Positions 19,915 through 42,088 of a DNA stretch of 59,009 nt are shown here, one piece after another; positions within the stretch are counted from its first letter, which is position 1; each line of letters starts with the position of its first letter. The stretch comes from Fusobacteriaceae bacterium (GTDB taxonomy: Bacteria > Fusobacteriota > Fusobacteriia > Fusobacteriales > Fusobacteriaceae): NCBI GenBank assembly GCA_031272775.1, contig JAISTB010000004.1, positions 1 to 59,009 of the forward strand, read 5' to 3'. The notes under the pieces were generated by a model, which saw only the letters and a program-made list of their open reading frames with translations, was not told the DNA's origin and did not search any database. A program made the position numbers and the translations under genes.

Positions 19915-19930
19915 TACGTTTGCTGTCAAA

Positions 19931-20007
19931 ACTTCCTACGGCGGCATTATCCGCATCAGGTCAAAAGGGTCGAATAAATTCCTCTCAGCCGGTCCCCCGG
20001 CTCCCCT
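19931..20007 (-). ncRNA. TPP (THI-box) riboswitch aptamer
   Basis: The minus strand reads GGGGAGCC, then GGCTGAGAGGA, ACCCTTTTGACCTGAT, GGATAATGCC and GTAGGAAGT, the conserved blocks of the thi-box in the correct order. It lies just before cytX-thiM-thiE-HAD-thiD and about 30 bp after the ferritin stop, with no terminator between, so read-through from ferritin is possible. Confidence 0.96.
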
Positions 20008-20036
20008 GTTTCTTGATTATTCGGTTTTTTTGATCT

Positions 20037-36485: not shown

Positions 36486-36625
36486 AGCATTATCCGAAAG
36501 AGGATTTTATCAAGACGCCGACGGAATTTCTGTCATTATGTACGATGTCAGAGAAATAAAGGCCCTCCCTTAATCGTGGCATGAATTTTGAGCTGAAGCG
36601 CAAATAAAAAGGAGGAATGTTCAGG

Positions 36626-37144
36626 ATGGACGCAGATATCATCAGAATAATGGACTGCGGGCAGGTTATTGAAATAAGATATGAAAATTGTATACAATAT
36701 GCCGGACGCGACAGTATCGGGGGCGTTGCGTTGGGATTCCGACTGATGCAGCGGGCGATACGGGATTTGAGTCCCGGGATCATTCCCGAAAGAAAGTCAT
36801 TCAAGATCAGAACCTGCTTTCCGGGACCCGGGACGAAGGACGCTGTAGAATTCATCACTAGGGCGGTAACAAGAGGGGAATATCTTGTGGATCAGGCGTT
36901 CCTTCACCAGGCGCCTGAAGCCGTGATCGGCAGATTGGGTTTTGAGGTGACAATCGGAGACGCGACGGCGCGCTATGTGACCATGGACGGCGCAATGAGC
37001 GAAGAATTCATCCGTATCGGTCGCCTGAACAAGACTGACAGGATCACGTTCGAGGAAAAGCTGCGCTGGACCCAACTCAAAGAGAGTCTGGCGCGGACGC
37101 TTATGGACACGCCGACGGAAGTGACGATTTTGCGGTTGGAGTAG
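36626..37144 (+). CDS. Possible FmdE-like protein, degenerate
   Basis: A 172-residue protein with weak likeness to the FmdE (formylmethanofuran dehydrogenase subunit E) domain. ENCIQYAGRDSIGGVALGFRLMQRAI stands where FmdE proteins have a GHLCPGLALG-type motif, and IRTCFPGPGTKDAVEFITRAVT where they have the SCAVDAIQ..TGCT motif; the cysteine/histidine ligands are mostly replaced. It could also be an unrelated family that I do not know. ATG 36626 is chosen because AGGAGG is ten bases ahead, while ATG 36617 is too close to it. It is followed by a strong terminator and stands alone. Confidence 0.5.
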   Translation: MDADIIRIMDCGQVIEIRYENCIQYAGRDSIGGVALGFRLMQRAIRDLSPGIIPERKSFKIRTCFPGPGTKDAVEFITRAVTRGEYLVDQAFLHQAPEAVIGRLGFEVTIGDATARYVTMDGAMSEEFIRIGRLNKTDRITFEEKLRWTQLKESLARTLMDTPTEVTILRLE

Positions 37145-37150
37145 ACCCTA

Positions 37151-37197
37151 AGCAAATAAAAAATCCCCCTTCAACAGGGAGATTTTTTTTATTTGCT
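37151..37197. terminator. Bidirectional terminator between convergent genes
   Basis: AGCAAATAAAAAATCCCCCT (37151-37170) pairs over nearly its whole length with AGGGAGATTTTTTTTATTTGCT (37176-37197), loop TCAAC. T-rich arms on both strands let it end the genes at 37144 (+) and 37209 (-). Confidence 0.85.
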
Positions 37198-37208: not shown

Positions 37209-38129
37209 TTATTTCGTTAAAATCAGCGATTTGATATCCACTTTCTTCTCGATCATCCCGTTTTGGAGCATGAAGTCCATGGTTTTTTCCATGGCGCTGA
37301 CGTCGCTGTCCCGTATCGTGTTGTCAAAATCGTAGAGCGGATACATTTTGAGCACGGCCTCTTTATCGAGGTCGGTCTCTTTGGCGCTGAGGGCGATCAC
37401 TTCGTCGTAATTTTCCGCCATGTACGCGAGGATATCCTTTCGCGCCTGGAGAAACGCTTCCACGACTTCCGGATTGCTCTTCAGGTATTTTTCGCTGGTC
37501 GCCGACACAATTACGGGATCAATGAGCCCTTCGCCGGTCGCGACGATATAATTTCCGGCGAGTTCCGCGTTGTAGGCGGCGGGTCCCGCAAGCAGCGCGA
37601 TGTCTATGCTGCCGTTATCGAGGGCCGCCTTGGCGTTGGGGATGTCCATCTTGATAAATTCCACATCGGACTCTTTCAAGCCGTTTTTGGCCAGAAACGC
37701 CAGGAGCAGCTCATGCAGGATGGTCCCCTTGGGTCCCGCGACCTTTTTCCCTTTAAGAGAAGCCGCGTCCGTCGGAATTTTTGTCTTGGAAAACAGCATA
37801 TACGCGCCGGGCGCGCGGCTGTAGACGTCGATGATCTTGATGTCCAGACCGTTTGCGGCGGCCAGAATGACCGACGTCGCGCCTACCGCGTGCAGAAACT
37901 GGATATCTCCGGACGCCAGCGCGTTTGTCTGGTCCGGTCCCGCCGTCAGCGTGGAGTATTCCACCTCCAACCCCCATTTCTCAAAGGCTTTCTGAAAAAT
38001 TCCTTTTTCCCTTTCCACAATGGACGGCACATTCAGCGGCGATTTTACGTAGGTCACGCCGATTTTGTCCTTGGAAAAGGCCAAAGCGCACAACAGCAAC
38101 ATACCGACAACGACTAAAACTTTTTTCAT
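37209..38129 (-). CDS. ABC transporter substrate-binding protein (NMT1/SsuA/TauA type)
   Basis: A 306-residue periplasmic binding protein with a signal peptide (VLVVVGMLLLCALAFS). The fold and segments GVTYVKSPLNVPSIVE, ALASGDIQFLHAVGATSVILAA and LKGKKVAGPKGTILHELLLAFLAKNGL are those of the nitrate/sulfonate/taurine or NMT1-like family. It would feed the permease and ATPase directly upstream (38155-39622). The ligand is not evident; a lysine/aspartate-rich binding region does not settle it. The gene is the last of the minus-strand ABC group and is followed by a terminator. Confidence 0.85.
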   Translation of the reverse strand: MKKVLVVVGMLLLCALAFSKDKIGVTYVKSPLNVPSIVEREKGIFQKAFEKWGLEVEYSTLTAGPDQTNALASGDIQFLHAVGATSVILAAANGLDIKIIDVYSRAPGAYMLFSKTKIPTDAASLKGKKVAGPKGTILHELLLAFLAKNGLKESDVEFIKMDIPNAKAALDNGSIDIALLAGPAAYNAELAGNYIVATGEGLIDPVIVSATSEKYLKSNPEVVEAFLQARKDILAYMAENYDEVIALSAKETDLDKEAVLKMYPLYDFDNTIRDSDVSAMEKTMDFMLQNGMIEKKVDIKSLILTK

Positions 38130-38154: not shown

Positions 38155-38868
38155 TTACTTTAATTGAGTTAAAATGTCCTGTTTTACCGTAATCATTTTC
38201 TGATCAAGCAGGTCCCGCGGATAGGGATAGTCTTCGAGAGAATATTCTTTTTTCACGCCGCCCCGCTCAAAGATGATGATTTTCTTTCCCAATAACAGAC
38301 TTTCGTCGATATTGTGAGTCACAAAGACGATGTCCTTTTGGGTCAGCGCCTGGATTTTCAGCAGTTCCCGCTGCATGGCCTCTCGCGTGAAATAATCCAG
38401 CGCGGCAAAGGGCTCGTCCATCAGAATGATGTCCGGCTCATAGAAAAAGGCCCTCGCGATGGCTACCCGCTGCTGCATGCCGCCTGACAGCTGCGCGGGC
38501 TTCGCCCGGGCGAAATCCTTTAACCCGACGAGCTCAAGCCACTTCCATACGTTTTCCCGATCCGCTGTCGAAGGTTTTTTTCCGAGGACGACCGCGATAT
38601 TGTCATAGGCGCTCAGCCAGGGCAGCAGACGCGGCTCCTGGAAAACGAAGCCGATTCTTTTGTTGCCGGGGATTTCCAATACGCCGCCGTCTATGGATTC
38701 AAGTTCTGAAAGCATACGCAGAAATGTCGTCTTTCCGCTGCCGCTTTTCCCCAAAATGGCGGTGATTCCCCCGATGCAGCATTCGAAGCTGAGGCCTTCA
38801 AATACGCTGATCGTCTCATGATCAATGACAAAGGATTTGTTGAGATTTCTTACTGCTATGCCGCTAAT
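38155..38868 (-). CDS. ABC transporter ATPase (SsuB/TauB type) with apparent ATT start
   Basis: A nitrate/taurine-type ATPase: Walker A ILGKSGSGKTT, Q-loop FVFQEPRLLPWLSAYDN, signature LSGGMQQRVAIARAF, Walker B IILMDEPFAALD and switch FVTHNIDES. The frame contains no ATG, GTG or TTG between the upstream stop and the TTG inside Walker A (38752-38754), yet the protein clearly continues upstream (AVRNLNKSF, the usual beginning). The best candidate is ATT at 38866-38868, six bases after GAGGGG, giving 237 residues, the normal family length; ATC 38874 and ATA 38859 fit the ribosome site less well. It overlaps the permease stop. Poor initiation may keep the amount low. Confidence 0.85.
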   Translation of the reverse strand: MSGIAVRNLNKSFVIDHETISVFEGLSFECCIGGITAILGKSGSGKTTFLRMLSELESIDGGVLEIPGNKRIGFVFQEPRLLPWLSAYDNIAVVLGKKPSTADRENVWKWLELVGLKDFARAKPAQLSGGMQQRVAIARAFFYEPDIILMDEPFAALDYFTREAMQRELLKIQALTQKDIVFVTHNIDESLLLGKKIIIFERGGVKKEYSLEDYPYPRDLLDQKMITVKQDILTQLK

Positions 38869-39622
38869 TTTGATCCCCTCCCCAGTTGAATCGCTTCAAC
38901 ATCAGCTGAAACAGCAAATCCGTCAAGAATCCCGTCAGGCCGATAAAGACAATGCCGACAATAATTTTGTCCGAGCGGGACATCTGCTGGGCGTCAATGA
39001 TGAAATACCCCAACCCGGCTGAAGCGGCCACCATTTCCGCTCCGATAATGGCCCGCCAGGCGTATCCGAGACCGATGCGCATGCCGACCACAATATCCGG
39101 AATCGCGTTAGGCAGGATAATTTTCGTAAAGCGCTTCCATTTTGAAAAGCGGAAAATTTTCCCGACCTCAAGGAGTTTCGGATCGCAACTTCCGATGCCT
39201 TTTTTGATGCTGAGAAACATCGGGAAAAAGGTCGCGAGGAAAATGATGATCAGCTTTGTCGTTTCGCCGATCCCGAACCACAAAATGAGGAGCGCGATCA
39301 GGGAAAGGGGCGGCACATGCCGCATAAACTCGAAGATTCCCTTGTACCAGCCGAAGGTCTTTTCTTTGATTCCCGCCAGAGCGCCAAGGATAAAAGCCGC
39401 GCCGAAAGAGAGGGCATAGCCCGTAAACACGCGTTTCACGCTGGTTCCCACATGTTTGGCGAGTTCCCCGCTCCGGAGCATTTTCGCGAAGGCGAGGGCC
39501 ACTTTTTGCGGACTCGGAAACACATAACTGTTCCAGACGCCCGCTTGGGACAAAATCTGCCAAAGGCACAGCAGAATCAACAGAAAGACAAGGCTTTTCG
39601 TTTTCGCGCGCAGAAAGCTCAT
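38864..39622 (-). CDS. ABC transporter permease (SsuC/TauC type)
   Basis: A 252-residue permease with six predicted helices and the EAA-type coupling loop (LLEVGKIFRFSKWKRFTKIILPNAIPDIVVGMRIG region), typical of nitrate/sulfonate/taurine transporters. LSLIALLILWFGIGETTKLI is the conserved central helix. It overlaps the cysteine-rich gene upstream by four bases and the ATPase downstream by five, so the three are translated together. Substrate unknown. Confidence 0.9.
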   Translation of the reverse strand: MSFLRAKTKSLVFLLILLCLWQILSQAGVWNSYVFPSPQKVALAFAKMLRSGELAKHVGTSVKRVFTGYALSFGAAFILGALAGIKEKTFGWYKGIFEFMRHVPPLSLIALLILWFGIGETTKLIIIFLATFFPMFLSIKKGIGSCDPKLLEVGKIFRFSKWKRFTKIILPNAIPDIVVGMRIGLGYAWRAIIGAEMVAASAGLGYFIIDAQQMSRSDKIIVGIVFIGLTGFLTDLLFQLMLKRFNWGGDQN

Positions 39623-40230
39623 GGGATCCCATCTCCGTTATGGCAACCGTCCGGACAGTACAGCAGCTCAATGATTCTGATCCCGCCAAGATCCGGATTG
39701 CCGCCCAATTGATCAATTTTTTCCTTCGAAGGCAACGAAAGGACAGCGTCGGCGTATTCGGCGAAGAACCCCGGCGGAATGGGACTCTCCTTCAAGTCCG
39801 ACGGCATGGTCTCGATTTGATAAATCCCAACGAATTCCTTCCAGGTAAAAAATCTTGTCCCGGAAAGGCCTAAGCGCTCTCCGTAAGCTTTGAGCGAATC
39901 GCAGGGCGTGACGATATACAGGCGGCCTTTTCCGGCGTACCGCCGGTGGATTTCCAGCGCGGATTCGATCAGAATCGGGTGGATCGCCGGCGCCGCGAAC
40001 GAGTCGGGCCCGTGATTTTGCAGGAAATATTCCCGCGCCTTGGGGCAGCGTCCGTCCAAAAGACATTTACCGGCTTGTTCCAGCGCCCTTCGGTATTTGG
40101 ATTTGACCAGGTCCGTGATTTTCCGGCGGCAGGCCACGACATGAAAGCCCTTCGCTGAAAGCTCGTTTTCAAGAGAATCCGCGGGGTACATTGCCGTAAC
40201 GACCGGATTCAGCCAGAGATAATTTTCCAT
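39619..40230 (-). CDS. Cysteine-containing protein resembling the [FeFe]-hydrogenase H-cluster domain
   Basis: A 203-residue protein with six cysteines (34, 56, 62, 110, 192, 196). IVTPCDSLKAYGERL resembles the MPCxxKK motif, and ELLYCPDGCHNGDGIP resembles the ExMxCxxGCxxGGG motif near the end of hydrogenase large subunits. The accessory ferredoxin domains are absent and the first H-cluster motif is not obvious, so catalysis is unlikely; a metal-cluster or metal-delivery role tied to the ABC transporter is possible. ATG 40228-40230 is preferred to the longer frame, which would cover the promoter. It overlaps the permease by four bases. Function is unknown. Confidence 0.55.
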   Translation of the reverse strand: MENYLWLNPVVTAMYPADSLENELSAKGFHVVACRRKITDLVKSKYRRALEQAGKCLLDGRCPKAREYFLQNHGPDSFAAPAIHPILIESALEIHRRYAGKGRLYIVTPCDSLKAYGERLGLSGTRFFTWKEFVGIYQIETMPSDLKESPIPPGFFAEYADAVLSLPSKEKIDQLGGNPDLGGIRIIELLYCPDGCHNGDGIP

Positions 40231-40263: not shown

Positions 40264-40315
40264 ATTATAGAACATTTTATTTTAAAAGTCAAACTAAATT
40301 TTAAACAAATTGTTT
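40264..40315 (-). promoter_or_regulatory. Promoter of the ABC subgroup with palindrome upstream
   Basis: On the minus strand TTGACT (40287-40292), 17-nt spacer and TATAAT (40264-40269). Just upstream lies AAACAA-A-TTGTTT (40303-40315), a perfect dyad in an A+T-rich stretch, suitable for a regulator. It gives the genes 40230-37209 their own expression apart from the two ABC genes upstream. Confidence 0.75.
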
Positions 40316-40344: not shown

Positions 40345-41094
40345 TTATTTCGCGGACGAACTGAGGGGGCGGACAAAAAGAACGCTGAAGAGCGAGAAAA
40401 GAAGCTGGTTCAAAAGAAAAATGACGCCGATCCAAGCGAAGATGGACGCCGTTTCCAGATAAAGCTTGCTGAAGAAGATTTTTCCGCCGATGGAGGCGGA
40501 TTTTTGGGCGAGCAGTTCGGCCGAGACGAGAAGTTTCAGATTGAGCGTAGCGGTCGCGGGAAACTGGGCGGAAAACCGGTGGAAAATGCCCGGAAGATCC
40601 ACGAAACGGATCCGTTGCCAGCCCGTTATCCGGTAGACCCGGCAAATGTCTCCGATTTCCAGTTCATTGACATCGAGGGCGTCGAGAAAGCCGCCGCAGA
40701 GAATCGGAATCAGGACGGCCGCCGAAATCGTGAAAGGTACCAGGGCCGCGTCACCCCATATCATGACGAGAATGATCAGAATTACGGAAGGGGTAGCGTT
40801 GACGAGAGAAAAAATCGGGGAAAGCAAGCCCCGGACAGATTTGCTGCGGACCGCGCAGAGGGAGAGCGCAAGCGCCGCGAGCAGCGAAAAGGAAAAAGAC
40901 AGAATCAGATCCCGCAGCGTACGGAAAATCACGGGCCGGTCGTCGCGGCAAATCACGAGGAACGCGCGGAAAACCGGGCCGATTCCCGGAAAAATCAGGG
41001 GATTTCCCGCCAGACGGGCCGCGCCTTCCCACAACAAGAGTAAAATCGCATATTTCAAAACCTTACTGGTCGGCGTCAACAAAAATTTTCTCAT
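40345..41094 (-). CDS. ABC transporter permease, second copy of the cluster
   Basis: A 249-residue permease with about six predicted helices. PIFSLVNATPSVILIILVMIWG is the conserved central helix and LEIGDICRVYRITGWQRIRFVDLPGI the EAA-type coupling loop, so it contacts an ATPase. ATG 41094, after GGAGGAAGG, is inside the end of the binding-protein gene; the longer frame extends further into it and is less likely. No ATPase is encoded next to it, so it probably shares the one at 38155. Confidence 0.82.
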   Translation of the reverse strand: MRKFLLTPTSKVLKYAILLLLWEGAARLAGNPLIFPGIGPVFRAFLVICRDDRPVIFRTLRDLILSFSFSLLAALALSLCAVRSKSVRGLLSPIFSLVNATPSVILIILVMIWGDAALVPFTISAAVLIPILCGGFLDALDVNELEIGDICRVYRITGWQRIRFVDLPGIFHRFSAQFPATATLNLKLLVSAELLAQKSASIGGKIFFSKLYLETASIFAWIGVIFLLNQLLFSLFSVLFVRPLSSSAK

Positions 41095-42088
41095 TGGGAA
41101 GCCTTCCTCCGAGGGTTTTGAGGTCCCACGCGCCCAATTTTTCAAAATACAGCCTGTAAGGCGTCCGGACCTCGCTTCCCGTCACAAAGCGGATATTGGA
41201 CCGCCGCAGGGAATCGGCGTCAATCTGTCGGAAGGGGTTCGGCAGCGACGCCGCCGCATAAAAAGACGCCATCCTGTCCCGGACGGTCTCCGCCGGGAGC
41301 GCCGCGAGGCTTCCGCCCGCTTCGGCGAGAACCTCGGCAAAGGCCTTGACAAAGGCTTTGTTTTCCAAATAAAAACTTTCCTTCACAACGAGGGTCGATT
41401 GCGGATATCCCATGGAATCTCCGGTCATTTGCTTCCATTCTTCGTTGAGATCAAAGAGAATTTTCAGGGGAAGCCGCGTATTTCCGGCAAGCAAATTCGT
41501 CACGGCAGGCTCCGGCAGCAAAAGGCAGGGTTTGATTTCCCTGTCGTTTTTTTGTCCGGCCATCCAGGCCGCCACGATTTCTTCGGCGTTGGAAAAGTAC
41601 TTCAGCTGGAAATCCCCGTCGGGATCGAGGCCCTTTTCTTTCAAAATGAGACGGAAGGTAATGTCGGGCGTCAGTCCCTTTCCCATGGCGTAGATTTGCC
41701 GCCCTTTGAGATCGGACCATGTCCCGGCGTCCAGGGTTCCCAACAAATAAAAAGCGCCCCAACCGACGCCGCCGAGGATCTTGTAGGCCTTTGTCCGCTC
41801 ATACAGCAAGGCCGCCATATTGGAAGGCACAATGGCCAGATCCGGCGTCTGCCGGAGGAGTCGGGTCATGAGCTCGTCGGGCAGGGCGGTCAGCGCGCAA
41901 GAGACGGTTTTCCCCGCCAGCGTAAACGTCAGGGCGTCCCTGTCCGGAGCGGCTTCGGCGGCCAGTTTCGCCAGCGCGAGAGACGGCAGGCCCGCCGGAA
42001 AGATAAAGCGGACGTCCTCTTTGGGAAAAAGAGCGTCTCCCATCAAAAGAAAACAGGACAACAGCAGAAGCCAAAATTTTTTGCTCAT
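41063..42088 (-). CDS. ABC transporter substrate-binding protein, second copy
   Basis: A 341-residue secreted binding protein with a signal peptide (KKFWLLLLSCFLLMGDAL). FIFPAGLPSLALAKLAAEAA, PDLAIVPSNMAALLYE and SDLKGRQIYAMGKGLTPDITFRLIL follow the NMT1/TauA-like pattern, which binds small organic or anionic ligands. It overlaps the permease at 40345 by about 30 bp. The two members are only distantly alike to the binding protein at 37209, which suggests a second substrate or a second route for one substrate. Confidence 0.8.
   Translation of the reverse strand: MSKKFWLLLLSCFLLMGDALFPKEDVRFIFPAGLPSLALAKLAAEAAPDRDALTFTLAGKTVSCALTALPDELMTRLLRQTPDLAIVPSNMAALLYERTKAYKILGGVGWGAFYLLGTLDAGTWSDLKGRQIYAMGKGLTPDITFRLILKEKGLDPDGDFQLKYFSNAEEIVAAWMAGQKNDREIKPCLLLPEPAVTNLLAGNTRLPLKILFDLNEEWKQMTGDSMGYPQSTLVVKESFYLENKAFVKAFAEVLAEAGGSLAALPAETVRDRMASFYAAASLPNPFRQIDADSLRRSNIRFVTGSEVRTPYRLYFEKLGAWDLKTLGGRLPNEKIFVDADQ

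Follow-up and report, generated by a model that had tools for sequence, protein, structure and literature searches.

What does a small protein with the cysteine motifs of [FeFe]-hydrogenase do in an ABC importer operon of a Fusobacteriaceae bacterium, and is it a hydrogenase at all? The gene lies on the minus strand at positions 39619..40230 of the window, the whole stretch of 59,009 nucleotides analysed here, and the gene and its protein are named hydL and HydL in this analysis. HydL starts with ATG and is a 203-residue, single-domain relative of the H-cluster domain, as indicated by profile hits to hydrogenases and by hhalign. The original prediction had rested on two cysteine motifs, which are indeed present as TPC-D-S-L-K and CPDGCHNGDG, and had overlooked a third one, RCP. 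The motifs are R61-C62-P63, TP-C110-DSLK and C192-PDG-C196-HNGDG; since RCP precedes the TPC and CxxxC motifs, HydL has three H-cluster motif positions in the hydrogenase order. Cys-62 (minus-strand codon 40045..40047) of RCP aligns with the cluster-ligating cysteine of TSCCP, Cys-110 (39901..39903, minus) of TPC aligns with MPC/GPC, Cys-192 (39655..39657, minus) is the first cysteine of C-x3-C, and Cys-196 (39643..39645, minus) aligns with the cysteine that bridges to the [2Fe] subcluster in hydrogenases. All four are invariant in A1, the alignment and profile of the three complete HydL sequences (window, G082 and G086), and are the sole cysteines common to all of them. The combined three-motif pattern was found in none of 200,000 shuffles of HydL, and HydL alone carries it among the 214 reading frames of at least 100 residues in the window. 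The C-terminus reads ...CHNGDGIP, with nothing beyond the last motif.

The A1 profile finds [FeFe]-hydrogenases, both those of the 470–590-residue type and longer sensor-like ones, with E-values of 1.9e-8 in G011 (profile positions 16–193), 1.3e-8 in G141, 6.5e-9 in G473 and 2.9e-8 in G429. The best full-span alignment covers positions 19–200, with all four cysteines in register with the four cubane ligands. Shuffled or reversed hydrogenases and unrelated open reading frames score at most 8.9 bits against A1, with the exception of one kinase-like protein at 19.5 bits. Alignment of the HydL profile with five hydrogenases by hhalign gives an E-value of 5.1e-7 and a probability of 92% over 116 columns. 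PF02906 (Fe_hyd_lg_C) comes close to its cut-off of 22.1 bits with one HydL homologue (20.5 bits, E 4.1e-4) and gives 16.4 bits with another; it does not match the HydL of the window. Because the A1 profile, hhalign and the near-cut-off PF02906 matches agree, the homology is solid even though no library names the window protein, and descent from a common ancestor with the H-cluster domain of [FeFe]-hydrogenase is well supported at the level of sequence. HydL resembles [FeFe]-hydrogenases (groups B and C/D) in domain order, in the four cluster cysteines, in the proline of the PC motif and in a near end-to-end profile alignment. A structural comparison with HydA had been suggested as a check: the profile comparison argues against an unrelated fold, but the model predicted from the single sequence is too poor to confirm the H-domain fold (mean pLDDT 46, low confidence). 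A fold search with this model returned nothing at E <0.001 and ranked Thermotoga maritima HydA fifth (E 0.22), and, the model being of low confidence, the search is not counted as evidence.

The same alignments show what distinguishes HydL from a hydrogenase. The lysine of the [2Fe] pocket at position K358 (CpI numbering) is replaced by leucine at Cys+3. After the last cysteine, HydL reads NGDG where hydrogenases read xGGG, so that GDG stands for GGG. The position of the proton-shuttle cysteine (C299 of CpI) is occupied by arginine in all HydL relatives; group C and D [FeFe]-hydrogenases also lack this cysteine (PMC10407848). HydL starts at the H domain, lacks the N-terminal ferredoxin-type cluster domain and has no further conserved cysteine. 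Some algal [FeFe]-hydrogenases lack the ferredoxin domain as well. None of the four HydL genomes (G000, G002, G082 and G086) has a match over the cut-off to HydF, the scaffold required for the [2Fe] subcluster, whereas HydF scores at least 515 bits in the positive comparison genomes G041, G009, G011 and G062. No PF02906 hydrogenase was found in G082 or G086, the genomes of about 1.3 Mb. Thus, HydL differs from [FeFe]-hydrogenases in its 203-residue length, its pocket residues, its score below the PF02906 cut-off and its HydF-less host genomes, and it is almost certainly not a hydrogenase, its hydrogen chemistry having been lost. The H-cluster likeness that had first drawn attention to the protein therefore holds for the H-domain homology and the conserved four-cysteine cluster site; it lends no support to an H-cluster or to hydrogen chemistry, as neither HydF nor the residues of the [2Fe] pocket are present. 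With the pocket residues lost, no HydF and two genomes without a hydrogenase, HydL would be expected to hold at most the [4Fe-4S] part, like Nar1, and probably carries a [4Fe-4S] cluster and no H-cluster.

The genome of the window (G000) also encodes two canonical [FeFe]-hydrogenases with all H-cluster motifs (C9:56350-57219 and C5:137155-138030). HydF above the cut-off is absent from G000, G001 and G002, which belong to one genus, although G000 and G001 have hydrogenases. For the hydrogenases of G000, either HydF has diverged or the enzymes lack the [2Fe] cluster.

The hydL gene is the first of four on the minus strand, followed by genes for a permease (38864..39622; PF00528, SsuC/TauC/SaoP-like and under those cut-offs), an ATPase (38155..38874) and a periplasmic binding protein of the SsuA/NMT1 family (37209..38129). 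Just upstream of hydL, the operon starts with a sigma-70 promoter, TTGACT-17-TATAAT (11/12), at 40264..40292 (minus strand), and 3' of the binding-protein gene it ends with a terminator-like hairpin of 13 pairs at 37158..37188 (minus strand). The ATPase gene apparently starts with ATC (38874) or ATT (38868) after GGAGGGG, because the first in-frame ATG, GTG or TTG lies at Walker A. Gene order and tight spacing are alike in all four HydL genomes, and promoter-like sites lie upstream of hydL in the three relatives as well. The survey of gene neighbourhoods, together with the promoter and the terminator, thus bears out the importer operon proposed from the window alone. The further statement that HydL, permease and ATPase are translated as one piece stands in the sense of translational coupling: the hydL TGA overlaps the permease ATG as ATGA at 39619-39622, and a GGAG Shine–Dalgarno-like sequence for the permease lies inside the final hydL codons. 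It does not stand as a fusion, since hydL ends in this TGA and HydL and the permease are separate proteins, and the operon includes the binding-protein gene as well.

In G082 and G086, the hydL operon adjoins sufCBDSU, in two different orientations. The 13-mer AATTTAGTTTGAC lies at 40288-40300 of the window, ahead of the hydL promoter, and at 8776-8788 of L006, ahead of the suf promoter of G082; it occurs as a single exact copy in each of the two stretches, shares bases with the -35 box, and could be a chance match. Just upstream of hydL, on the same strand, the stretch 40345-42088 encodes a second binding protein, weakly like menaquinone-biosynthesis and TAXI proteins, and a permease. No ATPase gene accompanies them, and the ATPase of the hydL operon might serve this pair too; the pair is not conserved beside hydL in G002, G082 and G086. 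Just beyond the operon terminator, a 175-residue open reading frame on the opposite strand (36617-37144) has no Pfam match. Elsewhere in the window, a TPP riboswitch lies on the minus strand at 19916-20017, and 5S and 16S rRNA genes lie at the two contig ends.

A search of Fusobacteriota genomes found full-length HydL homologues in G082 and G086, with identity figures of 41% and 39%, respectively; both are 1.3 Mb genomes of the same order as the window genome. In G002, of the window's own genus, the homologue is divided over two contig ends and apparently frameshifted close to its start. The HydL-bearing genomes thus are G000, G002, G082 and G086, from two families, and most Fusobacteriota genomes searched lack HydL. 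The stretches L008 and L009 of G002 have 33% and 28% G+C, compared with 52.6% in the window, despite placement in the same genus. The window HydL as a single query gave no meaningful match in Pfam, NCBIfam or PDB sequences, and a plasmid search and one pattern scan of viral contigs gave no HydL-like match. A 254-residue kinase-like match in L018 (E 4.8e-4) was judged to be due to chance. Outside Fusobacteriota, a partial sampling of 389 genomes across the domain and of three further phyla yielded long hydrogenase-type proteins only. Two pattern scans of GTDB contigs returned nothing; since the homologues known from the 1.3 Mb genomes fit the patterns and yet were missed, this result does not amount to absence. 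With the taxonomic sampling also partial, absence of HydL elsewhere is not established. A brief literature search, itself weak evidence of absence, found no described pairing of such a protein with an importer.

Relatives of the binding protein occur in 21 of the 98 genomes of the phylum. Operons lacking hydL have the order permease–ATPase–binding protein and start without it. When the three importer proteins are concatenated and their tree is rooted on the remote operon of G087, the operons with HydL, four in number and drawn from two families, group together as a single clade (support 0.86), with 14 HydL-less operons beside it. A single gain combined with transfer, or else a single loss, explains the distribution. 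To judge from these sequences, hydL travels with this importer. The importer resembles SsuABC and TauABC in its permease, ATPase and NMT1/SsuA-type binding protein, which matches the structures of SsuA (2x26, 1.2e-16) and TauA (6ssy, 6.6e-12), and differs from SsuABC in that the binding protein scores 163.2 on TIGR01728, slightly short of the 163.5 cut-off. Neither an SsuD nor a TauD gene was recognised in the hydL operon. In TauA, the amine of taurine is held by the side chains of E106, T132 and D205 (PMC6906117). These residues align with Tyr, Ile and Ile in the binding protein, while the sulfonate-holding glycines are kept, and taurine is thus an unlikely substrate. The permease and the ATPase are also distantly related to the SAO importer proteins SaoA and SaoP; this system was rejected as an assignment, as the models NF040729 and NF040733 score far under their cut-offs (149.7 vs 295 and 135.7 vs 360) and other Sao models have no match in the operon.

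The likeliest explanation, to which we give somewhat less than an even chance as a whole, sees in HydL a [4Fe-4S] redox protein of the cytosol that is coupled to the importer and acts on or with the imported compound. HydL would consist of a diverged H-cluster domain standing alone, with Cys-62, Cys-110, Cys-192 and Cys-196 as the ligands of one cubane [4Fe-4S] cluster and with no [2Fe] subcluster. Its gene would be read from its own promoter, ahead of the genes of the SsuABC-type importer, and the protein would work in the cytosol, take electrons from a ferredoxin, and reduce or otherwise process the imported compound or hand electrons to whatever does. The substrate-processing role, taken by itself, is put forward tentatively by analogy; of the roles first suggested, which were sensing, reduction or insertion of the imported substrate, reduction or processing is preferred because the products of accessory genes in operons of the SsuABC type commonly act on the substrate and because there is an anaerobic precedent. 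In this precedent, ssuCAB is accompanied by IsrBHDK, a nitrogenase-like enzyme that reduces isethionate (PMC11423573). The likeness lies in a metallocluster protein family put to new use, next to an SsuABC importer, for anaerobic reduction of the imported compound, and is one of analogy only; IsrBHDK has several subunits and no sequence relation to HydL. Against a processing role, a fully cysteine-ligated cubane leaves no open substrate site, no other catalytic residues were recognised in HydL, and the sister importers manage without it.

The translational overlap with the permease favours co-assembly, and would also fit a HydL that senses redox or Fe-S status and gates the importer, its oxidised or apo form stopping uptake via the permease or ATPase, or its vacated pocket binding the substrate as feedback. 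Diverged H-domains do occur in sensor-like proteins, and several of those matched by the A1 profile are fusions with kinase, sigma-54 or PAS-like modules; the suf operon beside the G082 and G086 homologues points the same way. However, HydL has neither an output domain nor a DNA-binding domain, and the ATPase carries no extra regulatory domain, being 226–240 residues long with HydL and 232–243 without it. Gating is considered unlikely.

The position of the operon beside sufCBDSU in both 1.3 Mb genomes, in two orientations, would also suit a role like that of Nar1, in which HydL carries or assembles clusters and the importer feeds a sulfur or iron source for them. Nar1 (IOP1/CIAO3) is hydrogenase-like; its H-cluster site holds a [4Fe-4S] cluster, and [2Fe]H is missing along with the maturases for it (PMC12621388). 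The retained H-domain [4Fe-4S] site is what is predicted for HydL. In contrast to Nar1, HydL has neither the second, N-terminal four-cysteine cluster site nor the C-terminal tail with its targeting tryptophan, and Nar1 is eukaryotic whereas HydL is bacterial and importer-linked. The suf neighbourhood was moreover seen in one genus only, the window lacking it, and HydL is missing from most Fusobacteriota genomes searched; this role is considered quite improbable. A similarly low probability is given to a reading in which HydL would be the first known of a class of importer-coupled H-cluster proteins with a single domain. In these, the imported molecule or an imported cofactor would bind in the [2Fe] cavity, now empty, and the hydrogenase scaffold would serve the ABC importer as a processing or gating subunit.

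Since four cysteines can bind zinc, the H-domain fold may have been kept with zinc or disulfides at its centre, HydL then being a structural or chaperone-like transporter subunit; this is very unlikely, as the ligands are the four of the cubane site around which the fold is built, the lineage is anaerobic and the CxxxC-G context is kept. Although the window genome has two canonical hydrogenases and no HydF above the cut-off, the idea that HydL itself works as a hydrogenase, or stands in for HydF as the scaffold of the H-cluster, is rejected as barely credible, given the lost catalytic pocket residues, the two HydL genomes without any hydrogenase, and G001, which has hydrogenases with neither HydF nor HydL.

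Among hydrogenase-like proteins without hydrogen chemistry, the best known is eukaryotic Nar1, and a bacterial, bare cluster domain tied to a nutrient importer would be another re-use of the hydrogenase fold. HydL is small, and its four iron atoms, its interaction with the permease and the phenotype of its deletion are directly testable predictions. HydL would tie the substrate taken up by an importer to iron-sulfur chemistry in anaerobes, among them probably the genus Sneathia, which has small genomes and comes from the human urogenital tract.
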